From assembly GCA_031213475.1 (NCBI GenBank), contig JARUPZ010000037.1, positions 248,001 through 312,000 of the forward strand: 64,000 nucleotides of DNA. Direction: 5' to 3'. The DNA comes from Nereocystis luetkeana. Taxonomy: Eukaryota > Sar > Phaeophyceae > Laminariales > Laminariaceae. The notes beneath the pieces were generated by a model, which saw nothing but the letters and a program-made list of their open reading frames with translations, made no database searches and was not told where the DNA came from. A program made the position numbers and the translations under genes. This document shows, in pieces, positions 1,561 through 63,200 of the stretch (within the stretch, counting starts at the first letter, position 1; every line of letters begins with the position of its first letter).

Positions 1561-3119
1561 AACAAATGGGACCCAACGTGAGCATGGAAACACGATGCCG
1601 GAAATATCATTGACCAGGATCAAATGCCTTCGCTACAACATAGCTGCATATAAGCTTACAACGAGTCTTTTTTACGCTCTTTAAAAATAAATAAAAAGTT
1701 GCGCAACCTCTTGCCGCAGCCCACGTACGACGCATATATGTATCATGTGCGTACTCGTATCATACGAAGTATCATGATATATCGGCATTGCAGGATAAGA
1801 CTGCACGCAACTACGGGCATATAGTGCTACCCTTTCGGCTCACTGTAACAATAACGCTCTACTGCTCTCTGTAGGAGAAGCCCGGTAGTATACAGCAGCA
1901 GCAGTAGGGCAAACAGACGTCAGTGTTTCGTACGATGATTGTGCGAACGATGTATAAGTCATATGTAAGCGTTCACGGGACGTGGGGATCGGATCCACTT
2001 GGGAGCGGCGAAAATTGCAAAAAAGCCTGCAGACTGCAGCAAGCCGAGCAAGTAGCAAAGTGTGCCTGGTGTGTAGCAGCCAATATGGCAACAGCAACGA
2101 GCAACAAGTACTCGTAGGTATATAGTTGCTGATTTCTGGCCTCTCCGCTGCTGCGAGCATCGCACTACTGCTTTACTGCTTTACTGCTGCTGCTGCTGCT
2201 GCTTTGCAGTTGTCTATCGATAGCACGCAAAAGAAGGGCACAGCAACAGCAGTAAAAATCTAGTTGTGCCGTCATAAACCAAAAATGTCAAGAGTCAAGT
2301 CAAGCAACGAAAAACGTGCGCTGTCAAGGTTGTAGGGCCGAGTATTCCACAGTAAAACCCAGTAGTTTGGTGACAACGCATGTTATGGCGAAGTTGCTGG
2401 TTGTCAAGGGGTTAAAAAACTGTCTCCTGGCGTATTTGTCACACACAGCAAGCAGCAGCAGAGCGAAGGCGTTATCTGATATCTCGGACAGGCTCCGATA
2501 TAGAGCAAGGTACAACGCGGGTGTACCACACGTGCATGGTGCTGCCTGCTGTTGATGTACTGTACTAGTAGTTAGCTGGGGGTTAGCACGCTCTCTGCGC
2601 TGCTGGTGTTGATGGCTGTTGCCCGAATCGCGCTGCTGTGTGCAACAGTGCCAACAATTTGTACGATCACACGATCGCGCACACCATCAGAGAGAGGGGG
2701 GGTGTTGTTGCGCGGTGAACAAATCTCGGTCTCAGATAAAACCAGCTAGCCACAGCAGTAAAATCGTTACCCAATCCAAGGAACCAACACTTGGCACAAC
2801 GATACAAGATTCCCCTTCGGGATGTGGGTGGCGTCAAACTATGGGATATGACAGTAAAAAAAGGGATGTTACTGTCATAGCCCATAGGCGTGATATCCGG
2901 GGTGTCGCAAGTTGAAAACGAAGACGCAGGTAGAACCCTTGCACCTCTTCTTGGAGCAAAATTGATCTCGGAGTAAATGAGTAATGGGTTACTGTATTGC
3001 TAAAAGCGAAGAGTAGTGGTCTCGTCATTGATGCTCTCGCATGTCTTGGCATATACCAGGTAGGAGGCATGGATTACTGTACTGCTCAAAGGAGAGCGTA
3101 GCACTCAGCAGAAAATTGA
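1561..3119. other. No gene recognised
   Basis: Intergenic sequence. It holds scattered CTG/CAG runs (a (CTG)n stretch near 2180-2205), and one TACCAGGTA at 3054. Open frames are short, overlap on both strands and resemble nothing known. Confidence 0.6.
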
Positions 3120-4545
3120 TGGGATGTGTATCATCCAGATATTTATCGCCTGGGTGGGATCTGTATCATCGATATATGTGTGATCCTTGATGATTTGAGC
3201 ACCTCTACCGGGTGGGGTCTGCACGATCTGCATGAACTGCACACGTTAATCGAACATACATGTACCGTGATTAACTGATGAACAGCTTTGCGTGGGCGGG
3301 TCTGCATGATCTGAAGGATCTGTACGATCTGCAGGATTTGTAAAATATAGATGTATCACCCTTTATTGGGCTAGGTGATATGCGCTTGATCTTCATGATT
3401 GCACTTGCGTGCCGGGTGGGATCTGTATGTTCTGAATGCCATGCGCATGATGTGGAGGATCTGCATGGTCTGAAGGATCTATTATCTACACACTCCAAAT
3501 AGTTTGCCCGGGGAGATATATATGTTCCATTTGCACTTGTGTGCCAGGTGAGGTCTGGTTGATCCCAGTGACATGCACATGTTTAGCCGGAATGGGATCT
3601 GTTTGGTTACGATTTTCATAGATATGTGCCTGAGTGGAATCTGCGTGATCTGTGCAGTCTGTACATTTTGACCGGGATGGAATCTGTCCTATCTGCCTGA
3701 TCTGTACACCTTTAGCGAAATAGCGTTTGTAAGATCTGCATGATCTACACATGTAGTTTATCGGTGAGTGCGCATGATCTGCAGAATCTATATAATCTGC
3801 AGGATCTGTATGATCTACCTGAGTGGAATCTGTATGATCTGTACGCCGGGATGGGGTATGTACGATCTGCATGATCCGCACATTTTTATCGGCGGGTCTG
3901 TATGATCTGCAGGATATGTATAGTCTACAGAACCTGTATGATCTGCTGGATTTCTGTATGACCTGAAGGATTAGTAAAATCTGGATACTCCACACTTGTT
4001 TACAGCATGTTTACCGGGATGGGGTCTGCATGAGGTAGATATTCACACGTATACGCCTAAGTGGGAATTTGTGTTATCTGTATGATCTGTTCATCTTGAC
4101 AGGGATGGGGTCTGTATGATCTGCATGATCCGCACATTTTCGGTGTGTTTGCATGACCTGCAGGATCTGAATTATCTGCACGACCTGTAATATTTGACAG
4201 GTGTATACCTGAGTGGGGTCGTGATGTGAGTGATCAGTACATCTTTACCGGGTGGGATCTGTATGATGAGGTAGATAATTCACACGTGTGTACCTGAGTG
4301 GGAATATGCAGAATTTCTGCGTGATCTGCAGGATCTATAAATCTGGATACTTCACACTTGTTTACATCATGTTTAGCCGGGATGGGGTCTGTATGAGGTA
4401 GATATTTGACACGTATACGCCTGAGTGGGAACTTGAATAGTGTGATCTGTGCATACATGGGATCTGCAGGATGTGTGTGATCTACCTGAGTGGAATCTGT
4501 GTGATCTGTATGATATGTTCATCTTGACCGAGATGGGGTCTGTAC
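3120..4545. repeat. Degenerate minisatellite of TGATCTGYA-type units
   Basis: More than 1.4 kb of short units around GATCTG(C/T)A(T/G)GATCTG, interspersed with longer modules ending in CACACTTGTTTAC and GGGATGGGGTCTG. Larger modules recur about every 150-350 bp, for example near 4010, 4100 and 4370, which points to layered amplification. Read on the minus strand it gives Asp/His/Thr/Ser-rich peptides; these are by-products of the repeat. Confidence 0.8.
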
Positions 4546-6260: not shown

Positions 6261-6529
6261 TATTTTTATAGAGAAATGGTCCTGTTGACCCTGGCACTAA
6301 ATACCCAGGGGAGTCACCGAACTATACCCTATATATGTCCTTGACGGACACTGTAATAACTAATGGAGAACACGCGCCACCGACGTATGAAGTACACACG
6401 ATACCTTGCAATGATCATTACTATTAATAATAATGCCTTCCCGTTGTAGCAGGTATATAGTAGCTACGTACATATGTACGCATACGCATACCAGGTTAAG
6501 TGACAGCAATGTTTCACAGATGTTCCCAG

Positions 6530-7690: not shown

Positions 7691-8486
7691 TCTCTGAGTC
7701 ACGCGAGATATCGTCTCGGAGTAGAAAAGGCATCCCGAGGAATGTCCTAGAAATAACGGTTCAATGTGAACAAAACACACTGCTCATCTTCAATACTCGC
7801 CGTATTTTGGCCTTCACTGCTGCTCATACTCCCACTACTCGCAGTGTCTAGGCCGCCAGTACCGCAATACTCTCAGCACTCGGAATACGAAAGGTACTCG
7901 ATACTGTACTCCAAATAATCCCGAATCGCACTGTCAGTACCAACAGCCAAACCTGATTTCTGTACCGTATCAGTAGACGGCAGACGGCAGGCGACATACG
8001 ACACAAACGTCATAGATTGCACCAGTAGCCGCCAGCACCCTCCACACCTTGTGAGAAAACCACACGCCATAAACAGTACCAGGTATCATACAACTGGAAA
8101 AACAGTGGTTGAAAGTTGCTGGACAGGGTAAGAACAGCACGATGTATATCACGACACCGCAACACTATCCTGTATCACGCTGAAGCACCAAGTCTGTACG
8201 GCGGCCTGAAAATACCGATATACTGCTTGCTGCTTGCACTGACTGCACGGAATACAATCTAGAGCGGTGACTCACTTTGCACATGCATATATATCGTACT
8301 CGTACGGAGCAGTAGCATACAATAGTAGTCTATCGTACCTCACCAACGTACACCTGGTATCACAGCAGTGTATTACAACACACCCCCGGTGGTAATAGTT
8401 TGAGTTTCGGATTTCAATCACCTCGGGGTGGTATCCTGAGCGGTGTGGTATATGTTTACGTGATGTTTGTCAAATTTTCGTATTTT
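7691..8486. other. No gene recognised
   Basis: Contains a partial copy (7775-7930) of the CGAGTACTCGCAGTATT block, one TACCAGGTA (8077) and a GC-rich inverted motif ACCCCCGGTGGT / CGGGGTGGT at 8373-8432 like those near 15690 and 19014. Confidence 0.5.
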
Positions 8487-8695: not shown

Positions 8696-9769
8696 ATCGG
8701 TAAATTGTCGTCTGTTTTCTTCACACCAGGTACACAACAGACAATCGCAGATCTTATCGTTCCAACGCTGCCGCCCACTCGCCGTGCGTGTGCGACACAC
8801 CCATATGCGCAGTATTGCTGTGGCTCGTTGTGTTTGTCGGAGCCTGCCGTCCGTATTTCACCATCTGCCTTTCCAAGTACCATATTTTGTTTCATACCTG
8901 GTACTTTTTTTACGTACAAACCCAGGCTGGCGTACCAGTTAACCTGCATCATCATCACCTCTCTCCCTGCTGCTTCTTCTGCCGCTGCGTGCTGCTGTGT
9001 GTGATCCAACAATGCCACTGCTCCAGCTGTGCTCGGCACAGTGCGCCAACAGTAGAAGTAGGCAGCATACTGTACGCATGCACTCTCAGTACTACAGCAA
9101 TGTTTGTTGTTGTCATCGGCATTTGGCCTATGCACATACATACCTACCTGCTGCTGTGTGTGACCGGCATTTTTTGCTCCATACCGATCCCTGGATCCTG
9201 GATTGTGTACTACTCGTACCTTCGTCGAGTCCAGTACAACCAGTCGGTCGTAGCATCGTGTACTGCAGCATTCATACAAAAATACTTACAGGAGCAGTAG
9301 TTACTGACTGTTGTGTGTCCTGCGTACTCCTGACCGATAGGCCCTAGAGCCAGCTGAAAGAGCACAGCAGTACACGTTCCTTTGTCGCAGTACGCGTATC
9401 CTCTGCGGCTCTTATAGAGTGGCATTTTACAGCAGTACAAGCTACTCTAAAAGATCCTGCAATGTGTTTTACTTGACGAAAAAAACATACTGGTACATGT
9501 ATAGTTGGTGATAAGTGTGATAACCTGCACTTGATTCTATCTGCGCTACCGGGGTTCCACCCTCACCATCCACGATTATTTTTTAATTTTCACCTTTCCT
9601 TTTATTTTGTACCGGTACACCCCCACCTTGCTTTTTTCTGACCTACCAGGCACTATATTTATACGTACTACTAGTTGTGTGTTTTTACGCAAGGAAGACC
9701 GCGGAGTTTGGGCGCGCTCATGTGTGGCGTGCGTACATACCTCAACCTTTCACAGCTACTTGCTCCCAA
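8696..9769. other. No gene recognised
   Basis: Long but unremarkable open frames on both strands (for example minus 8530-9279) overlap each other and read as compositionally mixed peptides without family features. CAG and CTG runs are common. A TACCTGGTA lies at 8895. Confidence 0.5.
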
Positions 9770-10195: not shown

Positions 10196-11915
10196 TTTAC
10201 CCTGAGCGCCAAGAAACATTTATTTTGCGGGAATAAATTTTGTATGTTGTGCTAGATTTTACTCAGCCGGTCACAAATTATCATGACAATGTCGCAACCA
10301 CGACCTCGCGCAACTTTTTGTACTTACGTTTAAGCCTCACAAGCATTGAATTGATCGCCGCGAGTCACTGTTCAGGATCAATATCCACTTACTACCCATA
10401 CCTGGTATACCCTCGATATTATTGTTGTAGCATTAATAGTAACGATCCCACACTATTCCCACAAACAGCGGTACATATAGTCTGTGGTCGAAAATGTGTG
10501 TGTGTGTTCTTCGGGTGGATGCAGTTAATTACCTGGTATGTAGTTCTAAACCGAGAGGTGTGCAGGTAATTCAAACGACGAGTACTATTTCTTGCGCCAC
10601 TCCCCTAGGCACGTTCCGGAGGGGAACCTTGTACCCCGTACCACTGGTGATTAAGTGGGTGGTCGTTTGGGGGTTCAAGTTATTCACCCCCAGGTGGTAA
10701 AGTGTAGGGGTGTGCTAAGGTTTGGAGTGTACTCGATACCATGCATGCCGTAGCCGTCTAGTCGTTTGACCATAGACCCGCGCATCCCTGCAAATGCCGG
10801 GACGGAGCACGCCGGGTTTTCACCGACCAGGCAGATATTGCTTGCATCAAGCGCGAAGCGCCGTGAGGTGCCGTGAGGTGCTAGGCGAGTCGCATGAAGG
10901 GTGAGCTGCGTCTTACGAAGAACCGCTTGCGGGGCGTACTTGCGTGCGAATTACAGCTCCAATACGCACCTGCATGCTGATTTATTTTCCGGTGTGGCCT
11001 TTTCCAGAGGCAGCAGTGGGGGTACTACCAGGTATGTAACTACCTGGTAGGGGGGATGTAACAGTGGTTGGGTACTTGAACGTTTTCAATCACGATGAGA
11101 CAACACCAACTACTCCCATCTCCCACCGTCTACCATCCACCAACGGAGTAAGGCACACATGTTCCCGACAGATACAAATATCCTGCTGCGCGGGTTCGCA
11201 TTGATAGCGACAACTACAGTACTATACCTGGTATACACTTATTAATAGGTAGACAAGACGTCCGAAACGAATAATGTGCCGCGCGGCGACTGTTTTCACC
11301 GTGTGCTCGACATCGCGACGTTCGTCCGGTGCGAAGTCTGAGAGCCAGATTGTTCAAGGATGCCATACGAGTATGCAAACACAAGGAAAGAGGAAAACTG
11401 GTCTGGAATGCGATTGCTTGCACAACACACGGACTACTCACGGGAACTGGCTCATCTGGTGACACTGCTGTGGGGATAGCTCAGGGTGTGTGGTATACAC
11501 CGTACCCCGGGTGATTCTCTCGTGTGGTCGTGAAGGATTTTAATAGTCACCCGGGTGGAATACTGCTGTAAGGGTGTGGTATACACGATGGGGCGTGTTG
11601 TATCTGGTGCACTGCTGCTGCCATACCAGTATACGATAAGCTACCGCCCGTCATCGTAACAGCAACAGCAGTACGAGTTCGATAGAGAGAAATGTGTACC
11701 TGGTATCTATTTCCACGGACGCCTATTATTATACCAGAGTGCGTATCAGATCGCTCGGCGTTGCATCCTCCCTGTCGTCGGAAAAATCGGGTTGGAATTT
11801 CGTCCAAGGGGTGTGCTTTTCGCCTGGTTCACTTGCTACCAGCACCAGGTATCATAGATGCATGTACCTTGTGGTATTAATATTAGCAGCAGCAAATACT
11901 GACGAAACCACATCC

Positions 11916-13017: not shown

Positions 13018-13460
13018 TAAAATAGTGTTGAAATTATTTCCGCAATTTCGAAAAAAACAAAAAACAAAATCGGAACACCCGCGGAATTGATTTTGAAAGT
13101 TGCGACACAACTTTAACTTTCCACAACCAAGGCTGTGCAGTTTGATACCTGGTACCTGGTACAGAGAACAGACCACGAGCAGTGCAGCAGTGCAGCAGCA
13201 GCAGTACAGAGTGCAGCAGCATTACCGCAATCTACTGGGAGCACGACATCGTAGTGTCGAACTAGCATCGGCAAGCGCTTGCAGCCGGATACCCTGTGGT
13301 GTTATTGTGTATGCCATCAATGACCCTCTACAGGCCTAGTGAGTCATAACTCGGGAGGTCGATCCGCACCATAAACTTGTGATCGCAGCCTACACTGAAC
13401 GTCTCAAGCGTTGGCATTACTACGCACCGCTGTGAGGTACCAGGCATGTCCCTTGCGCAG

Positions 13461-13667: not shown

Positions 13668-14305
13668 GTAAAGGTGCGAACGAATCCGGGCGGGCGGGCC
13701 ATTGCCGGCGGTACAGCTGTACTTTGTGATCAGGCCTACTAATAGCTCATGAAGCCCTTCGAGCCCGCGAAACAGCTGTGCATGTAACCTCCGGGATGCC
13801 AGAACGTATTCTTCAGTAGAAGTTTTGAAAAGGTGGAGTCTTTTACAACAGAGGACTGGTGCATATCAGGTACCAACCTGGTTTGTTTCGGTGTGTTCCA
13901 GACACAGACAGGCAGCACTCACCTGATCCATGGCGGTTCACAGCAATACGAGTACACCCTTGGGTATACTCGTACCTACCTATATGTCATGTAAGCTTAT
14001 ACCCTCGTTTTGCGCACTGTTCTTGAGATGGGAAATACTTAATAGAATGCCGTGCGAGTATGTCGTAAACGGTACCTGGTAAACGATACCGGGACACCTG
14101 CACACTGGCTGCTGGTACTGACTGGTACTGCAGTTGTAATACCAGGTATTATTGTACTTTGTGTTGATAGTGCTGTTCGTACTGATGTAGAGTACGAGTA
14201 TAGGCGTGTGAAGTTGTATTGTTGTTCCGTACGTACTCGTGCTCGTAGCGGGTACGAGTGGTTGTTGGTACCTGGTATATATGTACCAAAGTACCTGGTA
14301 CGGTA
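13668..14305. other. No gene recognised; clustered TACC(A/T)GGTA words
   Basis: Words at 14073, 14140, 14269 and 14292 lie within 230 bp. Frames here are short and full of the codons that TACCTGGTA creates. Confidence 0.5.
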
Positions 14306-15424: not shown

Positions 15425-16723
15425 GCGCCTCGACCCTTCCGTCCCGCCCTCTCCCTACGTTCGCACGTGAACAATCGGTGGGCATTCGTCAGGGCCCTGT
15501 GCCATCTGGAGCTCCCTTTTTCACGAATTTAATTGATACCTGTAGCACTTTTGACCTTGACCACGTGAGAAGTGCAAAAGGCTTCACACGTACCCTACAG
15601 TTAGTACTAAAAAAAAGGTACCAGGTATAATATAACATTTGTACCATCCTGTAAATGACGTATGTGGCGTAAGGTCCCCCTCGTCTTAGATACCACCCCG
15701 CCACAAAAAAACTCCCCAACGGGTGATAAAAAAAAGCAACACTAAAATCAGAAGGCAATTTTATCACCCCACGTCAAATATCCCCCTGAACCGATACGCT
15801 TCCAAACAGCATAACAACATATCGTCCCCGAGGGGCCTACATATAGACCCCTTTATGGACGGGGAGCGAAGCGAGGCTTGAATCAGTCTCATAGAAATCG
15901 AGCGGAGCGAACTATTAATATTAATTAGCCTACCACAGGCGCGATTTTTTTGGGGAAGACGAGTGCATCTTGCAGTAGCTGTTGTAACCCCCTCGGGGCT
16001 TCAATGGGAAAAATTAAAAATTGACGATATTACTTAAATTGACGATTGCAGCGACGGGAACTGCGTGATTTGTACGTACGTGTGTTCAAGTTATAATGGT
16101 TGAATGCAAGAAGTCGTACGGCACGGATCCCAACCCCCAACACGATCCTACCCATACAGCTGGACGCTTATGGTTGCTGCTTCCTCATTGGTCGTTGCTC
16201 ATACTGCATACCACGGCTATCAATACACGGTTGACACAAATTGTTATCGTTGCTTTGGTCGCTGTTGCGCTGTTGCTATCTTCAACACTCAACACCCAAA
16301 GACACACGCCTCAGGGTTAGGGTTAGCACGTTTTTGGGTTCGTCTTAGCACGTCGAATATTCGTCTGTTCAAGTCTGAATTCGGTTTGAAGTCGTTAAAA
16401 GTCTTTTCCGCAGACCCGTAGTAAATAGGTCCTAAATGTAGCATCTACTTTGGTGCGTTGTATGTTGCATCTGAACAACTACTGCGTGAATCGAAAAAAG
16501 TTGTTCGATTAAAATACGCGGTTGACGATAGGCTTTCCACCGAGGCTACGTTTGTAATCGTCAGGGATACATTGGGATGCCTCTCTCTCCTCGTTTTGGG
16601 CCGATATATTAAGGGCCACAACTGTGATATACCTGGTATTCTTTTCCACGTCTGACATGTGCCTCAGCGCTAAGCACGTGTTGGATTCGTTCCCAGCACG
16701 TCTCGCATTCGTGTTATCCTTTT
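15425..16723. other. No gene recognised
   Basis: Includes a GC-rich string family (TACCACCCCGCCACA at 15691, ATCACCCCACGTC at 15763), one TATTAATA (15913), a short telomere-like CAGGGTTAGGGTTAGC at 16312-16327 and TACC(A/T)GGTA words at 15619 and 16630. None of the frames resembles a gene. Confidence 0.5.
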
Positions 16724-19065: not shown

Positions 19066-20871
19066 TTACGTAGTATATGATATACTTCAGTATGTACCAG
19101 TTGTACTGCTGTAACGCTGTAAGAGATTGCGACCTGTGGCTTTTATAAAATTGTACCTGCTACTATGTTTTCATTGGCAAAAGTATATTTTTGTATCAGG
19201 CGGTCGGTACGACTGGGCTATAGCTTTTAGGTGCGACTAAACTAGCTTTTGGCGCCAGAAGGTGACGGAAGGCGACGTACGCACAACGACTAGCCCAAGC
19301 TGGGTACGTTTCAGCGACAGATGGCAGAAGGCGACGTAGGCAACGTTGACTAACCCGAGTAGCTGGCAACATACGACAGAACATGCAGGACGGGCATCTT
19401 CAGCAATCTGTGAACTGACAGCTTAAGACAGCCCCCACCAGGCTTATTTATGTGGTCTTCTTGTCCTTGCTCGCAGTTTGTCACTCACGGGAAAGCCCCG
19501 GTCGCATACGCCTTTGCCTTCGTGTCATAGCTGCCCACCCTGCTGTTGCTGGGGTGTGGCTGTCTGCCGCTGGTGGGCTGTGGTCGTCCGCTTCCAAGAA
19601 AGCTGCACAGACAACTTCGAAGCTTCTGCTGCAGACCCTCCATCGCTGTTGTGTTGTGTTTTCGGTTCATACGAACAATCATCGATCGTTTTGTTGTCAT
19701 TAATTCCAAGTTGTTTTTCCCTCTGCAAAAGCTGTAGGAACTGAATACCTGGTATGTCCGTATGAGCCCAATGGTTATGTTCCTACTATATTCTCAAGTA
19801 GTTATGACCCAATAAAAGCACAGACAGCACAGAGCAGCACCGTTCGCCATCGCCCCAATATCCAACCCAACTACAGCTACAGCAGCAGCAGCAGTACAAC
19901 AGCAATCTGCTCTGTGCAGCATGAAAATACGGGAATAAATATGCGTCAAAAACAGCAGCAATGTTGGCGACGATCGGGAGCAAGCAAACACAGAGCAACA
20001 ACAAACTAGCACTATCGGCAAAAATCAACAGCAAGAGGTATGATGAATACCTACGAGGCTTAGTTTTTTCGGATACCCTCCCTGTACCGACGAGTATGAT
20101 ATACTTGCTTCGACTACGTTGTATATTTTCATTAGTATCAATCCTGATTTCCGCTTTGGGACACAAGAACAAGTAGTCTCCTCGCTCCTGTACGTACAAT
20201 ATTTTACCTGGTACATATATACCTGGCACGTCAAAGTAGCATGTAAGTATATAGTACTATTAATAGTGGCATACTTTTTGGGTCACCCTCTGAAAACCAA
20301 AACCATCAGACTTGAGAATCGTATCTTACTTTGTGCAGCTGGGTTCATTTCCATGCCTACTGTACTTGGAAAAGTAATACCACATAACACCTCATATTGT
20401 CTTTTTTCGTCTACCTGTGGTCGTTACTAACCACTCCGGAGGAAAATATTATAATCTGTACAAATACATCAGCTGTGAGTACAGCAGATTGAATGGTTGA
20501 AACTCATCTTGGCAAGCTGCGAAGCTGCGTGTTTTGTTATTGTCGAAATTACGCCGGCAATTGTCTGAGTGGTGAGCGGTTACGTTGATGTCGACCGAAT
20601 ATTTACGCGTGATTACGGAGAAGCCGAATTTCGAAAAACTTACGCGTGATTACATATATTAATAGAGTGTCTGCACATAATATTTTTGTCTAACAAGGAA
20701 TTCCGTCGGAAAGATAGTCATATTCGAAGGCCTTCTGGCATGCGCATAAATCGGAGACACGAAAAATAGCACAATATTGGATTCTTATTTGAAAAAAACA
20801 CTTGCAGCAGCGGCAACACTCTTGCAGGACCAAACGACCCGAACAGAGGTCGTGCAAGCAGCAGTAGTATA
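19066..20871. other. No gene recognised
   Basis: Contains two TACCTGGTA words (19746, 20205), a decayed TACCTGGCA at 20219, and TATTAATA at 20258 and 20657. Frames overlap on both strands without similarity to known proteins. Confidence 0.5.
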
Positions 20872-22243
20872 GAACTACTTACATATATCTCACTCTCTGA
20901 GCGTGCTCGGTTGGTACATCCCTGGCCTCTCAGAGCTCCCACTTGGAAATCGCCTCCCTTATTACTTACCGGACCTTTCCGGCGGTTCTTCGTTTTCTCC
21001 ATTTCTCTTGGCACTTTCGTTTTTCTTCCTTTTTTCTTATTTGTTTTCTTATTTCGTTCCGTGTGCGTGCGTGTACTCGGAGCACGGCACCGCGGGCGAG
21101 CCCGGCGCCGTCGCGGGTGTCAACGGATGCTGGCGGGTAGAGGGGGGGTTGCAAGGAACGCGGTCGCCGTTTTCGTGGCTAGGCGTTGCGTGTGCCTCCA
21201 GACACAAGGGAACATGAATGGGCTCTGTCTGGCCTCCATTTGTGATTTTGGATAGAATATGCACGAGTCGATAAAGGTCGTTCGGGATTGCAGAATACTA
21301 TTCAAGAGGTGATTATTTTCGCGACCAAGGTGATGTTCACAGAGAGAGCTACGCAGTCTGAGCACCAACATAGTCGAGGTGGCGAACGAGTGCCACGGTG
21401 AGCACCGGGCTTAACGCGAGGCGGGCGACAAGGCTCACTGTGGCAAAGGGTGAGGAAAGCTTTACCCGGACCGAATCGATGACGAGGTGGTCGCGAGAGG
21501 GGCGGGCGGCGTACGAGGCTGAGAAGGAAGCTCTGTTGTTCGATTTTTTTTGTCTTTTTTACTTGTGCAAGGTGTTCCAATCAGGCAGAAAATTTGTACA
21601 TCACGAGACGGAGATTTGTTTTTTTTCCAATATGTTATTTTGCATTTCCGTTGTTTTTGCGGTGCTGCTGTGCCGTGCTGTGCTTTCTCTTTCGTACATA
21701 CAGCAAGCATATCAAAAGAAGAAAATGATTGCCCTACCTGGGATATGTATATGTGTATTCGTCACTTTAAACCGTTATTTCTACCCGTCGACATTCAGCA
21801 CAACCAGTGCCCGTGCCGATTCTTCAATCCTAGAGAGATACCTGGTACAAATTATGTGGTCATAAAACTACGCCACAGAGATACTACGTTGCGACGTATG
21901 CAGTAGGCAGCGGACAATGCGATGACATGTCATCGTACTGGATACGACAGGCGCGACATACCCATTCTATGAAATAGAGAAACGTATGCACGTACGCACG
22001 GCACGTGTGAGCGAGCGTAGCTGGCGGAACCGCCCGCGACACGAATCGTATGTGGCGTCCGAGCTGTTTTTTCCTGAAGCATGACGGCGGGACTCTTGAC
22101 ATTATCAAGTCGCTAGTTTTCAACTAAAAAAACTATGTTCAATCTTGGACCTCTGTCCGCTTCGATTAATTTGATGTGCTTTGCCTTCCTGGGCGAGCGT
22201 AGCGGACGGCGTGGGCCGCCCGCGGAGCGAAGCGCCTTGTAGT
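20872..22243 (-). repeat. Repeat R3, copy B, inverted, about 1.4 kb
   Basis: Opposite-strand partner of 14306-15424. It is longer because it carries about 240 bp (roughly 21745-22010) that copy A lacks; that extra block contains the R5 motif (21776-21822, minus strand) and a TACCTGGTA (21839). The right end reads GGGCCGCCCGCGGAGCGAAGCGCCTTGT, the fold-back end of the family. So an R5-bearing element seems to have inserted into this copy. Confidence 0.75.
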
Positions 22244-43564: not shown

Positions 43565-44613
43565 GAAAACCACGAGAACAAAACGGAAAAGAACCAACAC
43601 GGCCTCTTCGGTTGAAACACTGGATAAATAAAATCGAAAACCACGAGAACAAAACGGAAAAGAACCAACACGGCCTCTTCGGTTGAAACACTGGATGAAT
43701 AAAATCGAAAACCACAAGAACAAAACGGAAAAGAACCAACACGGCCTCTTCGGTTGAAACACTGGATAAATAAAATCGAAAACCACGAGAACAAAACGGA
43801 AAAGAACCAACACGGCCTCTTCGGTTGAAACACGGGATAAATAAAATCGAAAACCACGAGAACAAAACGGAAAAGAACCAACACGGCCTCTTCGGTTGAA
43901 ACACTGGATAAATAAAATCGAAAACCACGAGAACAAAACGGAAAAGAACCAACACGGCCTCTTCGGTTGAAACACTGGATAAATAAAATCGAAAACCACG
44001 AGAACAAAACGGAAAAGAACCAACACGGCCTCTTCGGTTGAAACACTGGATAAATAAAATCGAAAACCACGAGAACAAAACGGAAAAGAACCAACACGGC
44101 CTCTTCGGTTGAAACACTGGATAAATAAAATCGAAAACCACGAGAACAAAACGGAAAAGAACCAACACGGCCTCTTCGGTTGAAACACTGGATAAATAAA
44201 ATCGAAAACCACGAGAACAAAACGGAAAAGAACCAACACGGCCTCTTCGGTTGAAACACTGGATAAATAAAATCGAAAACCACGAGAACAAAACGGAAAA
44301 GAACCAACACGGCCTCTTCGGTTGAAACACTGGATAAATAAAATCGAAAACCACGAGAACAAAACGGAAAAGAACCAACACGGCCTCTTCGGTTGAAACA
44401 CTGGATAAATAAAATCGAAAACCACGAGAACAAAACGGAAAAGAACCAACACGGCCTCTTCGGTTGAAACACTGGATAAATAAAATCGAAAACCACGAGA
44501 ACAAAACGGAAAAGAACCAACACGGCCTCTTCGGTTGAAACACTGGATAAATAAAATCGAAAACCACGAGAACAAAACGGAAAAGAACCAACACGGCCTC
44601 TTCGGTTGAAACA
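43565..44613. repeat. 71-bp satellite array, about 14.7 units
   Basis: The unit runs from GAAAACCACGAGAACAAAAC through GGCCTCTTCGGTTGAAACAC to GGATAAATAAAATC. Units are nearly identical; the visible variants are GGATGAAT and CCACAAG near 43694-43715 and CACGGGAT near 43831. Because 71 is not a multiple of three and the minus strand lacks stops in every phase of the unit, all three minus frames stay open for over 1 kb and give the same hydrophobic 71-residue period. That is geometry and not evidence for a protein. Confidence 0.97.
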
Positions 44614-44765
44614 CGACACACCAAAAGCAAGCAGAAACACTAGATGAATTAGAGAGATGTGTGCAGGGGAAGATCTTCGCAGGGGAAGGTCTTCGCAGGG
44701 GAGGATCCTCGCCGGAATTGCCGGATGAAGGAGCAGATCTTCGTCCATGCAGAGCGTGGATCGTT
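44614..44765. other. Short GC repeats next to the integrase tail
   Basis: Three tandem copies of GCAGGGGAAGATCTTC-type 16-18 bp units at about 44666-44710. Confidence 0.7.
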
Positions 44766-49179: not shown

Positions 49180-50940
49180 ACGACAAGAGTGAGGAAATTA
49201 GCATAGGATCAGCGAGAAATCTCCGCATAACCGTACTACCGTGGCGTGAAATCACGGCACAGTAGTACAGTGGCGAAAAATCAAAAGTGAAAAAATAATA
49301 AAAGTGAACAAAAAATAATAATGATCAGAGTAAAAAACTAACAACAGCGGCAAAACGTGCAGAAGACGAAAGAACATACCGTTAACAGACACACCGCAGT
49401 ACAGCAGTACAGGGAATTAGCATAGGATCAGCGAGAAAACCACGCATAACCGTACTAAGGCAGTGGCGCGAAATCACGGCACAGCAGTAGTCAGTCGGGC
49501 GGTAGCAAAATCGCAGTACAGCAGCAAAATCGCAGTACAGCAGCGCACACGGTGTTGTTAAGACATTAAAATGAATAGCAAAAGTGAACAAAAATAAATA
49601 ATGATCAGAGTAAAAAAATTAACAACAGCGGCAAAACGTGCAGAAGACGAAAGAACATACCATTAACAGACACACCGCAGTACAGCAGTACAGGAAATTA
49701 GCATAGGATCAGCGAGAAAACCACGCATAACCGTACTAAGGCAGTGGCGCGAAATCACGGCACAGCAGTAGTCAGTCGGGCGGTAGCAAAATCGCAGTAC
49801 AGCAGCAAAATCGCAGTACAGCAGCGCACACGGTTTTGTTAAGACATTAAAATGAATAGCAAAAGTGAACAAAAATAAATACCTGGTAATGATCAGAGTA
49901 AAAAAAAATAACAACAGCGGCAAAACGTGCAGAAGACGAAAGAAAATACCGTTCACAGACACGCCGCAGTACAGCAGAACAGGAAATTAGCATAGGATCA
50001 GCGAGAAAACCACGCATAACCGTACTAAGGTAAGGCAGTGGCGCGAAATCACGGCACAGCAGTAGTCAGTCGGGCGGTAGCAAAATCGCAGTACAGCAGC
50101 AAAATCGCAGTACAGCAGCGCACACGGTTTTGTTAAGACATTAAAATGAATAGCAAAAGTGAACAAAAATAAATAATGATCAGAGTAAAAAAAAATAACA
50201 ACAGCGGCAAAACGTGCAGAAGACGAAAGAAAATACCGTTCACAGACACGCCGCAGTACAGCAGAACAGGAAATTAGCATAGGATCAGCGAGAAAACCAC
50301 GCATAACCGTACTAAGGTAAGGCAGTGGCGCGAAATCACGGCACAGCAGTAGTCAGTCGGGCGGTAGCAAAATCGCAGTACAGCAGCAAAATCGCAGTAC
50401 AGCAGCGCACACGGTTTTGTTAAGACATTAAAATGAATAGCAAAAGTGAACAAAAATAAATAATGATCAGAGTAAAAAAAATAACAACAGCGGCAAAACG
50501 TGCAGAAGACGAAAGAACATAACGTTAACAGACACGCCGCAGTACAGCAGTACAGGAAATTAGCATAGGATCAGCGAGAAAACCACGCATAACCGTACCA
50601 AGGCAGTGGCGCGAAATCACGGCACAGCAGTAGTCAGTCGGGCGGTAGCAAAATCGCAGTACAGCAGCAAAATCGCAGTACAGCAGCGCACACGGTTTTG
50701 TTAAGACAATTAAAATGAATAGCAAAAGTGAACAAAAAAAAATAATGATCAGAGTAAAAAAAAATAACAACGGCGGCAAACGAAAAAGCAAAATCGCAGT
50801 ACAGCCGCAAAATCGCAGTACAGCCGCGGTTGTGGTGGCCAAAACGCAGTACAGCAGTAACATCGCCGTACAACAGCGGTAGGCCGGTACCGTGAACCTA
50901 CTGAAGAGAGAGATAGAGAGGTCGACATGCAATACCACAG
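49180..50940. repeat. Tandem repeat with 281-289 bp period, four full units plus partials
   Basis: Equivalent points (the G of CCGTTAACAGACAC, or its variants) lie at 49381, 49662, 49951, 50238 and 50524, giving steps of 281, 289, 287 and 286 bp. Units share AGCATAGGATCAGCGAGAAA, CGGGCGGTAGCAAAATCGCA and two copies of AAAATCGCAGTACAGCAGC. The second full unit alone contains TACCTGGTA (49880), which explains 7 of its extra bases. The array lies between the primer site and the integrase, where gag and pol would normally be. Confidence 0.95.
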
Positions 50941-52018
50941 TGTATACTCGTACGTACGTAATTTTGCCTACTGCTGTAGTCTATTAAAATGAAAAACGTG
51001 GCTTGCAAGGTTTGCAGGGATGCTTATCGACCTCTAACTTGCCAGAACAATAACTAAGAAAGGGGGATGGAAAAGGACGTGCGTTAAATTAGTATGTTGC
51101 GTTAGCCGTGAGGCATTTTTATTTCACAGATAACAGCAGCAACGAAACGTGGCGAGGCGGCGACGGCAGCGGCAACATACACGCACGTGGTAAGGGCAGC
51201 ACACAAGCACGTGACGGCAAGCGACGGCAGTAACGACGTACGTGACAGCAGCTGGCTTGTGGAACACGAGCCTGAGAGTCTCAGCGAGCGCACTTGGACA
51301 CTCGCGCTCTCAAACCCCGCATCATCGTCAGGCTTACGCTTATTTTTCATTCATTCTTTATTTTGGCTGCTGTGTGGAAAAGGTGATGGGGGTCTGACAA
51401 GTGCGCTGCCGGCTCCCACCTGCGCCATTTGTTCAATACACGTCGAGCCAAGCACGCAAACTCAGGGTACCAGAGTGAGAATCAACGATGTGGACACGCG
51501 CCAGGGAGCAAGTCGCTTCCTGGTTGTGTCATGCATCATGAATTATACCAGGTACTCAGGCATTCCCCACCGAAATAAAATAATTAATTGAGTACAGACC
51601 CCCTAAATAATGAGCACCCGTTCAGAGTCCTGGGTGTTATCGTACGCGCGGGACGCGCAGTACTGCTGCTGCTGTATCCGTGATACAGCCTATACCCCGT
51701 AGTAGGTACCAGTGGGGTTGAGTTTCCACGTGGTCCATGGTTGCATGTGGTCAGCGGTGGGTCAGAGTTGCTTGCAGGAAGAGCGCTATCAGCGCGTGTA
51801 CCCCCCGTAGAGGCAAAGGAAAGGCGAGGTGCAACACACAAAAAAAAAACAATAAAACGCTGCCACCCGCAGCTACCAAAAAAGTTACTCAAGATAAAAA
51901 ATAAAATCGAAAGGAACAGGTCGGAGGCGCGAAGGCCGCCGCTCGTTCCGGCACGGGAAATGCAAACCCGTGCAGTAAGCGCGCAGCATGTACAGGGACT
52001 GAACACCATGAAACGGAA
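50941..52018. other. Element leader region, no gene recognised
   Basis: Corresponds to sequence downstream of the primer site in the element's sense. It contains TACTGCTGTA (50969) and TACCAGGTA (51546). Frames at 51584-52009 (-) and 51187-51591 (+) overlap and show no capsid features. Confidence 0.55.
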
Positions 52019-52048: not shown

Positions 52049-52488
52049 TGAAACGGAAAGCTGGCTACCTGGGCTGAGGTCTTAAGTCATTGTCACAAGG
52101 CAACACATGTAGGGTTCTGCAATAGTTGGTAGGAGTGGCAGCTGGGGACCCCAGGTTACCACTCAGAGACGCATAACCCAAAAGGGGCACATAAAGACGA
52201 GACATGAATGACCGACCTCAGTGACAGAGCAGAGCTTAAGTCCGACCGAGTCGAGAGGTGCGCTCCTAGGTCTCCAGGAGAGTAGGGCGAGCTTGTGGTT
52301 CTTCTGTGAAGAGGCTCCAACTGGAGATGGCTAGATGGTAAGTGATTGCTTGTTCCGTGACCGTGGTGATGGTCGCGGGAACTGAGTGAGACGGAAGGGG
52401 GATGAAACCTTCCGTCCGGAACGGAGCTACAATATGAAAACGCCTCTATGTCATCATAACTCCTGAGACGGTCAACCGAACCGTAACA
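52049..52488 (-). repeat. 5' LTR (high-coordinate copy), 440 bp
   Basis: Same sequence and length as 42726-43165. Followed outside by GCAC, the probable target-site duplicate. Confidence 0.93.
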
Positions 52489-52508
52489 GCACTGCTTTAT
52501 TGCTGCAC

Positions 52509-52995
52509 TGCTGGGGGTGTGGGTGGTTTGTGTGGATAAGTAGGTTAATTTTTCATAGCGTTGCAGCATGGGCGGGTCGTCAGCAACGCAACCCAAAGCA
52601 TGAGTAAGCATCGGAAAGTTGGTGGTGTGGGTATTAGCGTATGCTAGCCCCGCTGGTGGGGCAGCTGTCGTAGCACTATTAATAGTACCGCAGTAAGCAG
52701 CGGAACGTCGGAGGGTTAGCGGGCGGATTTGCTCGAAATAAACTGTGCTGGGGGTGTGGGTGGTTTGGGTGGAGAAGTGGGTTTTGTTTTTGCTACATAC
52801 CTGGTAGTTTATAGCGTTGCAGCATGAGCCCGTGATCGGCAAGCATAGCCCAAAGCATTGAGTAAGCAGTGGAACGTCGGCGGTGTGGGTATATATGTAT
52901 ACAGGGCCCACTGGCATGGCAGCGGTCGCACCACTATGAATAGTACAGCAGGAAGCATCGGAACATCGGTGGGGTTTTTTCAAGTGGGCGGATTA
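52509..52995 (+). repeat. Two tandem diverged units of about 235-250 bp
   Basis: Both start GGGGGTGTGGGTGGTTTG and carry ATAGCGTTGCAGCATG, CCAAAGCAT, GAGTAAGCA and GGTGTGGGTAT. The first has CTATTAATAGTACCGCAG where the second has CTATGAATAGTACAGCAG. The second has a TACCTGGTA (52798) absent from the first, but the flanks there are too diverged to define a clean insertion. Confidence 0.8.
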
Positions 52996-54504: not shown

Positions 54505-55573
54505 AGTGAGTGGGCCACATCGTCTGGTAGGCCCTCCGGCACGATGGCTGACAGCAGACCAATGCATCCCGTGTCGGACACGCTCGAAGGCGGAGGTGCT
54601 GACCTCTCTGCTGCTGCTGCTGCTGCTGCTGCTGGAGCTTCTGCTGCTGGAGCTTCTGCTGCTAGAGAGGATACCCCCATCTTCGCCCATCGGATCGGCT
54701 GTGTGTTGCACATCTTGCACCTCGCCGTGACTGCGGGGTTGACGAACCCCTTCTTCATGGGCCCTCTCGGCAAGGGGAGTTGGCATGAGTGGGAGTCTGA
54801 CCATTTGGTGGCGCTGCTTGGCTCTGTCTGGTACAATATCAGCAGATAAAATACATGCAACGCGACTTTCAAGCAGTTCCAGAATCTGGTAGCCGAGCGC
54901 TTCCCAGGAGAACAATGGAAAACCAAGTCCATCAGGCCTGCCGAGACGCGATGGATGGTGATTTGGGAGGGTGCCGCGCTTCTGGATGAGCGCTGGGACG
55001 AGCTCCAGTGGGTATTTGGCACGTGGGCGCCGGAAAATATGCTCGGTACTCCGTTTCAAAAGTACTGGCTGCAAGGTGCCTTCATGCTGAACCACCCGGT
55101 TTTTCGAGTGCAGGCACGCTTTGCTAAAGAGCTACCTGGTAGGTGACCTCGTTCTGAAGTGGGCGTACAACTGGCTTCGAGGTGAGGGCGGATATTTCGT
55201 GGAACGGGAAGGGACGCGGGGGCGGCTCCCTCCTGCAATGCGTCTGGTGGAGGTGGCTGACTTTGCTTTAGAGTTCATTACGCGCTTGGAGGAGCTCCGG
55301 AAAAACAAGGACACCCATTTCAAGACGCTGATCCAGTTCGCCAGATCAACACTCGAGACGCACGAGGTGAGTTTTTTTTTGTAGCTTCTTGTATTTTTTT
55401 GTTGCGCTGCGAAAAATTGAAAAAATGTTGCCTGCTTATTTTTATCTGTGTCGCATGTCTGCTTTCGAATTGTCTACCTGGTATTTTTGTGCGTGCCCAT
55501 CGAAGCTATGACGCACTGAGGATCATCACTCTTGTCTCATCACTCTTGTCTCTCGCCCTGCCGGTGCTGTTGT

Positions 55574-56176: not shown

Positions 56177-57907
56177 AGGTGAGGTGCATTTTGGGTATAG
56201 GAGTGAAAATTCGCAGCTGCGACACGAGAATTACATACCGCAAACAAAAAGGTCGACTGAGTACCATTGCCCAGTCATCGGGACTCCATCGTTGACTCGC
56301 GAATACCGGTCATTTTGATTTACCGAGTCGAAGAGTACGTCAAAGTACTGAAACGACAGAAGAATCCTCGTGAGTGAGCCTCAAGGGTACGAGGGGCTGA
56401 AATGATTGAGTCCTCGCGAGTCTCATGGGTATTCTTAGATTCGAAATATACAACCAAACATGATGTTACAGTCGAACCACGCAGCTTGCGATGGCTTCGA
56501 CGTGCCGTGTACACCATCATCATACTAAATAAGACGCCGCAGAAAAGCCCCAAGATGGCAAAAGGCATACGAGAACTTTCGCCGACGGTCGTTTTTACGT
56601 GCATGCACCCCGTAAACATCACCAGGTATAACTCTGTAGACAAGACAGCTATTAATAGTACAAATGAAGCTGCGCAGAACTCGACGCGCCGTTCAACAAC
56701 CTAAACCAAAGAAACGAACGCAGGCACGACCTCAACGATGACGTCAACCAGGGGTACAGTGAATGTCGTCCTTCGTGGGTCGTTATCGTCGTAATGTGGG
56801 TATCGAGAAAGTACCTAGAAAGTACGCACTCCTGCTATAGTCTAATACAGTTCGCAGTTAGCTCCTTCGAACATGACAATAAAAGTTACCGTACGCGTAT
56901 ATAGGGTACGCACCTCCCATGGATTAATAGGATTCCGTCGCGCTGCAAAAAACAAAATGACCTTGAATGACCGCAAAGAACACTTTTGAACTGCTATACC
57001 AGTGCCTATTATAAATATTTCATGCACGGATGTATTCCGCGAAGCTTGCGCTGCACTACGTAATCGTCATGTGAGTATGGTGTACATGTTGATACTCTGC
57101 TGCATGTGTTGAATCGCTACGGAACCTCTTGAACGTCATTCGTCCACAAAATGCCTGTTGCCCTATCTATTGCATTGTATGTAACACCATCATGCGGCTG
57201 TGAAGCGCAGGGCTTTTCCCATTCGCCATCCACGCGTAGGGTGCACCTGGATGTCCGTCATATTATTGTAGTGCGATACTTCAACGTAGAGTAACAGTTG
57301 TACCTGGATACCCATCATACTGTATCGGTATTAATAGTAGCACGACAAGTAGCAAATCGGACACCACAACACTCAACATGATACATTACATTCAATACAT
57401 GCGATCGGAACAACACACATCGCAGCGATGGCCGTATGCAGCATACAACATAATTTCGTGCGCATTCTAAATGATGCCTCACGCACATGCCCATCCTGTT
57501 GTCACATCGTGCAACCAATAGCTGACAGATCCCAGCCTGGGTATTACCCTGCCCGAGCCTCCCTTATCAATGGTCTAGCTTTGCCTACCCTACCAATAGC
57601 CTAGCCTGCTGCTATTATTACTTTCATGCACTGCACAGAACACTGCCAACCACCGTTGTCTACAGTGTATCGAGTGCACGGCACCATAGCCTGGTTGTTC
57701 CCAGTTCCGGTCGCTCTGCTACAATATGCTATGATGCAATATGGTGCCGTCATTCTCGATACGGCATGTAGCATGTGGCATGTACTTTTTACTCCTAAGG
57801 TCTGCCAGGGGCTTGATCCGTGACTCTTGTTTTCCGTGATGCCGCGTTATACGATGTGATCACTGCTTAAAGGCTCATCCACCGTCCACTCCCCCTCCTG
57901 TGAGCAC
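56177..57907. other. No gene recognised
   Basis: Short frames only; TATTAATA at 56650 and 57329. A plus-strand frame at 56402-56704 of ordinary composition has no splice or family support. Confidence 0.5.
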
Positions 57908-58655: not shown

Positions 58656-58727
58656 CCCTCCTGGGGCTCGAACCCAGGACTCAAACAAGTAGAATTCGAG
58701 GTTAACCACTTGAACCACCGGGGCGAC
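58656..58727 (-). tRNA. tRNA-like sequence, degenerate
   Basis: On the minus strand TGGTTCAAGTGGTTAACC fits an A box and D-arm, and GGGTTCGAGCCCC fits a B box and T-loop with a strong CTGGG/CCCAG stem. The spacing is about that of a tRNA. The acceptor strands (about GTCGCCC and GAGGGTC) pair poorly and the anticodon stem is irregular, so this is more likely a tRNA pseudogene or a tRNA-derived end of the adjacent R1 repeat than a working tRNA. Confidence 0.4.
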
Positions 58728-58739
58728 CGGCGGTCTATT

Positions 58740-59326: not shown

Positions 59327-60223
59327 CTGAGTATGTGTCGACATCGAGAGTCTTTCGTTGCACGAGCTGATTTTCAGCAGTGTTGACAATTTGCATCGAG
59401 AAAAAAATAATGCGCCGCCTGCAGCCATTAGAAGAAAAAAATGAAAAATCAAGCATGTTTGCCCTTTTTCCCCGCAGCGGCGGTACGGGGATATTTTCGG
59501 CTGTTTTCTTCAAGCACTATTTAAAGAAAACTTTTTGACTTCGCGGTTTCCAGTGGTATAATAAGTCTGAGGCTTGCCACACTTGTATTGTCGAATGTGT
59601 ACAGCTACAGTGTACCCAATGTGTAAATACAAATGCAGTAGACCGGAGTATCCTTTAATAGGGCCGAAATTGGTACTATTAATATTGTACATCATCGTAA
59701 CACAGAAATTAGCGGCAGGGAATATCCCAGCGGCGAAGGGCAAGCTTGGCCGCAGCACAGGGGCGTGGCGATACACACACGCATGCACACAAATAAACAT
59801 ATATGCGACCAAACCTAATGCTAGCAGCTCTAACGGTATGAATAGTTACAGTAGTTACAGTAACAGCTCTAGCAAAACAGCTGCAGCCTTGTAATATACA
59901 GAGTTTAACGAAACCGCACAGAAGAGGACAGAAGGGAGTACCCAAAGGCCACAGCACCGCAACTAGCAGCCGCCGCATAAAACTATCACTATCACTATTA
60001 CGAGAGTCCATCAGAGTTATCACAACCAAATATGGTTGGTAAGGATACAGTAGGGAGATAGATGTTTTGGGGCCCGCCGTGGGTTCTGATTACTATGTAA
60101 TGGTATGCCCCCCCGTAATACTAGTAATACTACCACTGCCACTGTAATAATGTGCCGGCTCAATACACGCAGTGCCAGCGATTGGAGAGCATCTCGCAAG
60201 GAAAACATGCCGCATGGACTCAC
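59327..60223. other. No gene recognised
   Basis: Contains TATTAATA (59677), TTACAGTAG repeats near 59846-59870 and, at 60080-60118, a string (TTACTATG...CCCCCCCGTA) resembling one end of the small TA-flanked element at 12919 and 25290. A last exon of the DHHC gene could lie here, but none was identified. Confidence 0.45.
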
Positions 60224-63200
60224 ATCCGAGAAGCGTTGCCTTCGGTCCTGCTGCTCGGGAGGGAAAAAGTCCACCACAGGGGGTGGGGGAGGACACCTGC
60301 TGGGCATCAGACCCAAGAGGAACGATTTTTGGCCGAAGACCTGCTGCCAGTTTCCCTTGTATCCCACATCGAAGGGGTTACTCCACACCTTTCACGCAAA
60401 GCCAAGCACACAAACACACAACCCAAACCGCAGACAGAACGGGGGGGGGGGAAGACGAAAAGCTGGGATGATCTGCGAACGACAGGCAGTCAATAGCAGA
60501 TAGAGGCGTAGAGCAACGGAGCGTAACTAGCGGAACACCAGAGCTTCGAAATGCAATAGACCTACAGCTGTCAAAACAAATAAACGATGCCCTTTCACAC
60601 TCTTTGGGTTAGTTATAGCCACGTATTGAAATACTCGCAAGAACTTTTTGCACTCGCGGTTTTCTGAACAAGTCATGATTCACGTGTCTACTCGGTACAT
60701 GCCTTCGGGTTTTGGTCGTGCAGAGGATTCAGCATTCACGCAACTCGTCGGTTCTCATCGATCTCATCCATCTCATCCAACCTTGCCGACTCGCGGACCA
60801 ACAAGGTCACCAACCCAACAGTTGGAGCACCAACACAGACTGCAGTACCTATAACTGACGCCTAGGACTGCTATACGAGCGGGTTCAAGCTGAACGCCTC
60901 TTTTGTTTTCGCCCACGAATGCCGCTTGCAATATCTACTCGAACGCCGTTTCTTTGGTATTATACTGACCCCCATCAACGCCGGAAGGCGGTGTCACAGA
61001 CAGTATTGCGTTTAGAACCTAGGGCTGGCTCTAGCAGTCAAAACGTGTCGAGGTCAACTACAACCGCAGGATTCCTAAACATAGAAGAATAGTTTCCGAT
61101 GGAACATCGTACCGTTTTGTATTTCTTTATATTTTGTTCTGCACGAGCTTGTTCCAGGTACTCGAAGGCATGCCTGTAATTGTTTGGTGCAAACATTTCA
61201 TGAATTGACGTAAAATCAATACCTGGTGTCAACTACCCCCAACATGGACCCTACACTGAAATTACTGGAGGTATTCAAAGGCAACGACGCAATTTATACA
61301 TTTTCCCGCACAAAACTCCTAATGCCCACGCCGCTTTTATGAGATAGACCCTAAAAATTTGCACATGTGCTTTTTTTTTCTTTGTCCCAACTTGAAGGAG
61401 CGGTATACCCTCGTATATATCTATTATTTAATTCCTTCGCCGAAAATATTGGGCTGAAGGAGGCCCAAAGCTTCCAGAACATTATAAATGACAATCAGTC
61501 GAAAACAAAATGTCAGGTAACCCTAACATAACGTGCCGTCAAATGTTGGCAAGAGGTCATTGTAAATTTTCAGGGTTTGACTCGAAATAACGGCGTCGAC
61601 TTTGGCTGAGGAACACAATTACTCCACATTGATGCTGAAGATAATGGGTCGCCACGCAGCAATATGAACGTTCTGTTCAGAACGTCGTTCCCCTCCGTAC
61701 CACTGATGCACAGTACGGTCAGCGCCTCGTGCGTATGTACCTCTCTGTGATGCAGGCAGAGTATACCTGGTATTGCCTTTTGCGGGCAATTGTATCGATA
61801 ATGGCACAACCAATAATATGATTTTTTGGCCTTCGAGTATTCGCTCACCTCTCCCCATTGTCGAGCCCTCGATCGATTGGTCTGGTTTTGGTAGAACTCA
61901 ATAGTCGTTTGCGCCGTTAAGATAAGGTAGATGTGCCAGCCCAGGAGCACTGAGATAGCGATGCCCACGGACAATGCCAGCACAAAAGTCAACATGACCG
62001 CAGACTGGGCCTTCGTCTCCGACGCCGTCGGCTTTCGGTGTCGCTGGTCAGTAAAGAAACCATTAAAGCGCATCGGTACGTGAAACGGGGCATGAAACGG
62101 CGCGTGAAACGATCCGTTGGCGGCGGGAACTATGAATAAACTATTATAGGGTCAGAGCTGATGTAAACCGCAGACAGCAGCAATGGGTGCGACAACGGTT
62201 GAGTGTAATGCTTGATGAGTTCACCACTCCATGAAATGATGCACAATATCAACAGTACTACAATAGCAGGACAACAACGGTGCTACTGTGCAGCAAAAAC
62301 AGCAACCATCTTCGAATCACCATATTCCCGGGGAATGCGATCGCTAGTTTGTACCCAGGGTGCGTACCCCCGGCGGAAGAAGTTACTGTCACTTTCAGGG
62401 TTTCAGATTGGTCATATTGCGTTTCGAATCGGGGATGCGTTTACACCGGCCCCGACGTGGTGAGCTCGTGAAAACAGCAATGCCGGCGTTTCAGCACCCA
62501 AAATAACACAAGCACACTGCTGTACGATACTACAATAGGTATAGCCAGGGTACTTCCTGGAAGGATAAGCGATAGGCACAGGGCGTGGTGAAGGGCCGTT
62601 CGAATACGTTGTCGTCGTTAGCAAAATGACGGCATGCGCTATTATATCAGCATGATGGGAGAAAATGAACGATGACATGACGGTTCTTCATCTTTGGGGG
62701 AGAAACAGCCATCCAAATACAAGCGTGAGAAGCCTCAGGCGTGAAACACCAATCAAACTCACCCAACCGAAGTGTAAATATGCACCAAAAATAGAGGGAA
62801 ACAAGGCACAACAGCCACTGCCATACTTCGTACCCAAGGTGTATAAATATCTATAGAAACTTTCCTCACTCGTGAATCTTCTTCATACCAGGTACATGGC
62901 AACATGGATTTTGAAACAAGCATAGCGATAGCCGCCGACATCAAGTCACCTAACTGAGGGTTTAGTGTTTCGCCCGCACAAAAAGCACCCGGGGGATACA
63001 AAAAACAAAAACAAAGCAAAGACTAGGTTCGTCGCGCTCGAGCACGGTACGAGTAGCCTCCTCTCCATAGCCCCATACAAAACGACATAACAGGTACCAA
63101 GTAGAAAGCAAGTATTCGTGCCGCGCCACAAATCCGCGCGCAACCATACGATGAACCGGCGACCCCCCGCAGCATTGCGCTTGAACTGTTTTAATCGCGC

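Follow-up and report, generated by a model that had tools for sequence, protein, structure and literature searches.

Footprints left by excised transposons have long been known, and the usual way to gauge transposon activity is to count surviving copies. The scar of Sleeping Beauty is said, in an earlier note on the DNA considered here, to read TAC(A/T)GTA. In print, its footprint appears as TAG(T/A)CTA (PMC2874221), and footprints of 0-4 bp are described in PMC9976928 for Passer, a member of the pogo superfamily. DDE/D recombinases mostly have palindromic consensus targets, according to the account given in PMC5481204. In the brown alga Ectocarpus, Mariner-Tc1 elements make up 17 families with almost 12,000 copies, most of them non-autonomous (PMC12477816). 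Here we describe a nine-base word, TACC(A/T)GGTA (TACCWGGTA), that is scattered over the genome of the kelp Nereocystis luetkeana. Our starting point was a window of 64,000 nucleotides, bases 248,001-312,000 of contig 37 in a 465-Mb assembly whose contigs are of chromosome size. We consider it likely that each copy of the word is the footprint of one insertion and one excision of a TA-targeting cut-and-paste DNA transposon.

Forty copies of the word are present in the window (28 TACCTGGTA and 12 TACCAGGTA), whereas 100 dinucleotide shuffles of the window yielded 0.38 copies on average and 2 at most. The earlier note had reported at least 40 copies in the same proportion, and every one of them was found again at its position. 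The genome-wide count that it had called for gave 182,395 copies in 465 Mb against 1,744 copies of the reversed word. True single-base neighbours of the word occur only 0 to 6 times each in the window, so that the excess is word-specific. Our first sample comprised the window and loci L001-L004, L007 and L009-L028, in total 279,045 bases or about 0.06% of the genome. It contains 122 words against 2.8 expected under a third-order Markov model; seven of them come from L001-L004 and L007, which were chosen for holding the word and bias the sample toward it. An enlarged sample of 319,045 bases served for the paralog control and the decay count, and the largest one (349,045 bases, including 2,500 N) for a still stricter paralog rule and the held-out target test. 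Since TACCTGGTA is the reverse complement of TACCAGGTA, the two represent one word read on opposite strands. The A/T centre and the 28:12 split consequently reflect orientation and say nothing about mismatch repair. The earlier argument that the A/T ambiguity stems from a mismatch between two transposon ends falls with this, for the two letters carry no independent information.

Next, we compared scar loci with their relatives. Flanks of 113 scar loci were joined via TA and aligned to the sample, and 63 rows cross the junction, some of them unreliable owing to AT-rich sequence or tandem repeats. The scar at 49880-49888 of the window lies in a tandem array of 281-bp units. It occupies one unit, and plain TA stands at that place in five other unit alignments; one of these empty units matches the joined flanks at 100% identity over 202 bp. 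In a 180-bp duplication, one copy carries two word units with one common TA (37479-37494) and the other a single unit (37659-37667). The dispersed repeat at L025:7056 has 13 aligned copies, ten with TA, two with other bases and one with the scar-like TACCTGGTT. The last of these, at position 141 of L013, is apparently an independent hit at the same TA. TA is also present in all eight aligned copies at L003:1501 and in 10 of the 11 copies of the dispersed repeat bearing the scar 21839-21847, the eleventh having CA. Both sites show gaps or mismatches near the junction and neither passes the stricter gap-free rule; at 21839 a gap lies a few bases away in most rows, and none counts as clean.

Under this gap-free rule, which removes low-complexity flanks and with them the array scar 49880, 8 of 117 queried sites returned paralog rows for the word: 13 empty, 1 filled and 17 unclear. 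For control words of the form TA-N5-TA, 137 of 1,071 sites returned rows, of which 3 were empty, 221 filled and 340 unclear, and two of these three empty rows fall in the 37479 cluster itself. The general indel spectrum of the sample is thin, the word accounting for two of its eight 7-base indels.

Coding sequence offers another comparison. A frame on the minus strand (61573-62151) encodes a DHHC palmitoyltransferase stretch, which scores below the Pfam cut-off (E 4.5e-5) and is 97% identical over 66 residues to a DHHC-domain protein of the kelp Laminaria digitata. Taken by itself, this one gene points to a brown alga, probably a kelp. About 76 bases inside the inferred intron following this exon lies the scar 61764-61772. 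Two homologous predicted proteins, P0001 (79% identity across 64% of the query) and P0002 (73% across 57%), read through the scar-bearing intron and contain GNILCLHH. Read at the protein level, the window intron gives PGILCLHH with the scar and exactly GNILCLHH once seven bases are taken out. The other 20 proteins matched by the frame do not have this stretch and are uninformative on this scar. Pfam scans covered 25 of the 43 scar-bearing frames that are 125 codons or longer, and only the DHHC frame and one below-cut-off match in L014 came up. A homolog search with a large scar-bearing open frame on the minus strand (52156-52989) found none. At L019:5750-6499 a nearly identical protein also has the scar reading and a distant homolog stops short of the scar, which makes this comparison no test of emptiness.

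Plain TA in related copies, together with the exact absence of seven bases from two homologous intron readings, identifies the word as an insertion at TA. At the sites open to comparison TACCWGGTA is, as judged from these alignments, a 7-base insertion at a plain TA. The expectation, set beforehand, that related sites should show plain TA was thus borne out both in paralogs and in two homologous intron readings.

The insertions are not spread evenly over available TAs. Set against 14,979 plain TAs, the flanks of 115 scar loci revealed the mirror-symmetric target motif WA-NNNN-R-[TA]-Y-NNNN-TW, and the earlier statement that nothing is conserved outside the word proved wrong. The preferences are for R at -1, A at -6 and W at -7, with the complement on the right (chi-square 23.5, 50.7 and 44.3, respectively; 3 df). 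In seven held-out 10-kb loci, 15 scar loci reached a mean motif score of 4.2 against 2.71 for 3,133 plain TAs (p = 4e-6), although four of these loci, with 5 of the 15 scars, had already been inspected before the test. The share of available TAs occupied by scars climbs from 0 to 10.5% between the lowest and the best motif class, the motif having been chosen on the same data. Within 15 bases, symmetrised flanks show little beyond the target motif. A mirror-symmetric preference of this kind is what would be expected of a dimeric transposase.

Scars also occur in tandem. Two units with a common TA are found at 8 of 120 loci, the remaining 112 having a single unit; besides 37479, the window contains such a double hit at 13146-13161. 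Doubles involve 8 of 240 scar edges as compared with about 0.8% of TAs in general. A scar gives its own outer TA a T at -7, an A at -6 and a G at -1, and this supply of a half-target would explain the doubles. One-base derivatives of the word are likewise in excess: the 319,045 bases contain 156 of them, where 56 would be expected, and 128 intact words (a reverse-complement pair being counted once). This fits scars of mixed age decaying neutrally; if a single age is assumed, the numbers would correspond to roughly 9% change per site. Given that decayed forms are in excess, more excisions than the 182,395 counted may have happened.

How could such a word arise? A putative element would insert at TA and duplicate it, the duplication being deduced from the scar, and its ends would begin with CCWGG. 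At excision, the transposase would cut the other strand five bases inside each end, leaving 3' overhangs that are self-complementary (CC-W-GG), save for a single W:W mismatch where the two ends are the same. The host would then anneal and join the overhangs to give TA-CCWGG-TA. The fresh scar, T-A-CCWG-G-TA, would constitute a perfect half-target, and chains of scars are likely because that half-target meets the target preference. In the same manner a second TA-targeting element, with TTAA ends and four-base cuts, would produce TATTAATA.

This second word (TA-TTAA-TA) was counted 15 times in the window (0.39 expected) and 67 times in the first sample (6.0 expected), and it has the flank preference TAC[..]GTA. 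Empty homologs were found for L012:4568, L018:6282 and L015:7096. The gap-free rule gave 16 empty, 1 filled and 13 unclear rows (7 of 61 sites), and TA-N4-TA controls gave 23 empty, 329 filled, 3 both and 420 unclear rows (162 of 1,287 sites). Many other paralog rows of TATTAATA lie in simple repeats and are uninformative. The window copies are located at 6422-6429, 11240-11247, 11875-11882, 15913-15920, 20258-20265, 20657-20664, 23412-23419, 26630-26637, 33963-33970, 41140-41147, 42224-42231, 52677-52684, 56650-56657, 57329-57336 and 59677-59684; the aligned paralog of the copy at 52677 is filled, as TATGAATA. TATTAATA behaves like the CCWGG word and appears, on the strength of these comparisons, to be a second type of scar. 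Extrapolation from the sample suggests a genome total of about 100,000. We also observed that counts of the two words per 10 kb covary (correlation 0.53; 24 loci, L009-L032).

When TA-Nk-TA words in general were screened for empty paralogs, the CCWGG word came up at three sites, TATTAATA at one and TACGACTA/TAGTCGTA at six. The last pair differs from TA by six bases at L003:72 and three more L003 sites, L012:4423 and L013:6758, and these sites are apparently copies of one repeat family. Enrichment of varying strength was also seen for TACAGTA, TACAGCAGTA, TACGAGTA and TACCGGTA, none of which we count as a demonstrated scar. In the sample, TACAGCAGTA was seen 32 times against 1.6 expected and TACAGTA 112 times against 45; these two may be scars or may belong to CAG-rich repeats.

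The remaining CCWGG scars of the window were located by word count. They stand at 3054-3062, 8077-8085, 8895-8903, 10399-10407, 10530-10538, 11026-11034, 11041-11049, 11225-11233, 11697-11705, 14073-14081, 14140-14148, 14269-14277, 14292-14300, 15619-15627, 16630-16638, 19746-19754, 20205-20213, 23190-23198, 26489-26497, 28466-28474, 28622-28630, 39056-39064, 39105-39113, 40189-40197, 40315-40323, 41203-41211, 41876-41884, 51546-51554, 52798-52806, 55133-55141, 55475-55483 and 62886-62894. Two other features of the window may be mentioned: a minus-strand frame (26648-27166) with a hAT transposase dimerisation domain (PF05699, E 2.7e-8), and an array of about 15 units of 71 bp with 99% matches (43560-44614), in which no CCWGG scar is present.

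Several observations weigh against an excised transposon as the source of the word. The 279-kb sample, a fraction of the genome too small to exclude such elements, yielded no intact element with TA-CCWGG ends. Where TACCWGG is not followed by TA (n = 120), each four-base continuation occurs at most four times. The DDE_3 transposase family (PF13358) has no match in the genome at E <= 0.001. The five-base core is longer than the 2-4 bp quoted for Tc1/mariner footprints in PMC7913693. Not every relative has plain TA, either: the sole aligned paralog of the scar 52798 (75% identical, gapped) has TT, two paralogs of L015:8093 have CA and GA instead of TA or the word, and two copies of the L025:7056 repeat possess neither. 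Finally, independent sites are few. Clean empty rows come from only 4 of the 117 queried sites, and these four include both halves of the double scar 37479, for which a row counts as empty when it has one unit less; a still stricter rule, applied without the complexity filter, leaves a clean empty paralog at 2 of 128 loci (49880 and L025:7056). Few as these sites are, the direction of the empty-site evidence is consistent.

Other searches for a parent element gave the following picture. Pairs of CCWGG ends in inverted orientation, flanked by TA on one side or both, number 17 and are by eye scar-to-scar or chance matches. When TA-flanked inverted repeats of any sequence were considered, none began with CCWGG among the 70 of 436 pairs listed. 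In paralogs with a long insert at the scar TA, the gaps resemble neighbouring repeat copies and no insert starts with CCWGG except scar units. Three similar continuations of TACCWGG, in L017 and L018, proved to belong to copies of a single repeat; in two of the three the likeness crosses the word, which is incompatible with an element end there. The excision-scar reading put forward in the earlier note is thus partly supported: insertion at plain TA has stood at the sites open to comparison, and the palindromic target preference described here is that of an integrase or transposase, while the CCWGG-ended element did not turn up intact in the sample, nor a DDE_3 match in the genome.

The density of scars, set beside an intact element not seen in the sampled sequence, could also be accommodated if no element were involved. 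A TA-specific enzyme might add or template CCWGG-TA in one step, be it an integrase acting on very short end fragments or a nuclease followed by templated repair; insertion with a symmetric target would suit any dimeric TA-specific integrase. We regard such a one-step process as unlikely, because a constant five-base core between TAs and an unrelated TTAA core in the same layout fit two ordinary excision footprints, and we know of no process by which CCWGG-TA is added to TA in one step. That scars far exceed visible elements would also agree with programmed DNA elimination, in which a domesticated transposase would excise TA-CCWGG-bounded sequences at some stage of life, the assembly showing the eliminated state. 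Eliminated sequences of Paramecium are bounded by TA, and their excision restores the original site, a single TA without scar. In kelp, paralogs of the compared scars have plain TA, so each scar would demand a new insertion, and we give this scenario very little credence, even though programmed elimination by a domesticated piggyBac transposase does exist in Paramecium (PMC3408717).

Extreme enrichment and symmetric flanks might also describe the binding site of a dimer, that is, a motif kept by selection at fixed positions as a protein-binding, replication, methylation or splicing signal. Such a role is highly improbable, to the same degree as programmed elimination: compared homologs mostly do not contain the word (two intron readings and 13 of 14 resolved paralog rows, from few sites), its one-base derivatives are more numerous than chance would give, in keeping with decay, and one scar is intronic and another within a tandem array. 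The expectation, likewise set beforehand, for a fixed binding or splicing signal was not borne out, the words being missing from homologs and decaying. Slighter still is the chance that the word grows like a microsatellite or is carried by chance in a spreading repeat family. Slippage could account for the doubles at 8 of 120 loci, including the 37479/37659 pair, yet single units prevail at the other 112; a spreading repeat, in turn, is at odds with flanks that show little beyond the target motif and with single units facing TA in several unrelated repeats.

Returning to excision, one may ask how much of the genome's history it would explain. The chances seem evenly balanced that at least two TA-targeting transposons, with self-complementary CCWGG and TTAA ends, wrote several hundred thousand uniform scars and that their intact copies are now rare. 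With self-complementary overhangs of five and four bases every excision would close alike, and the record would grow in chains. If this is true, most of the transposition history of the lineage is readable only in scars that are too short for ordinary repeat annotation, and the genome is a direct record of how frequently cut-and-paste movement took place over evolutionary time. Excisions themselves could then be counted, roughly dated by their decay and mapped, alongside the target preference measured here. Each scar would further serve as a small low-homoplasy insertion marker for kelp phylogeny and population genetics, low rather than free of homoplasy because favoured TAs can be hit twice. 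Searching for TA-core-TA words with empty homologs is a simple test applicable to any genome.

Four features seem to be new: the sheer number of scars, how uniform they are, a core as long as five bases, and the presence of two kinds of scar side by side in a single genome. In the open-access literature searched, none of the exact words appears in print as a word by itself, though occurrences within longer sequences would have escaped this search. For brown algae and transposon excision footprints, no relevant report was recognised in open-access literature by title and beginning of abstract, which is no proof of novelty.

Among known systems, some can be set aside readily. piggyBac is characterised by a TTAA target and seamless excision (PMC10512250), and we rejected it, as the kelp target is TA and seven bases remain. 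PIF/Harbinger follows the rule of a three-base target duplication (PMC12477816) and was rejected as well, since only TA is repeated on the two sides of the kelp core, with R at -1 and Y at +1. The TcMar families and MITEs of Ectocarpus likewise belong to a brown alga; section 5 of PMC12477816 prints no terminal sequences, and the main text of that paper never mentions excision, footprint or scar. The kelp scars share TA boundaries with internal eliminated sequences of Paramecium. They differ in that seven bases stay in the kelp genome, whereas excision in Paramecium restores a single TA. The range of 0-4 bp described for Passer (PMC9976928) takes in the four-base TTAA scar and not the five-base CCWGG scar.

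Closest are the Tc1/mariner elements (IS630-Tc1-mariner). Insertion at TA, characteristic of this group, is found in kelp, and the accompanying duplication is deduced from the scar. A palindromic target around TA, which is usual for the group without strictly defining it, is found in kelp as well. Of the two cores, TTAA would fit the likewise usual, not strictly defining, footprint of 2-4 bp and CCWGG would not. Considering the gaps concerning element and transposase, we describe the CCWGG scar as working like a Tc1/mariner footprint and do not file it as one. With Sleeping Beauty and Tc1-mariner in general it has in common the TA on each side, a core palindromic except for the central base and a duplicated TA (PMC2874221), as well as the palindromic, AT-rich target preference described for Tc1-mariner in PMC5481204. 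The core of Sleeping Beauty consists of three bases, that of the kelp word of five, present in 182,395 copies per genome and known from scars alone. Compared with the quoted ranges of 2-4 and 0-4 bp, this five-base core would extend the range of footprints.

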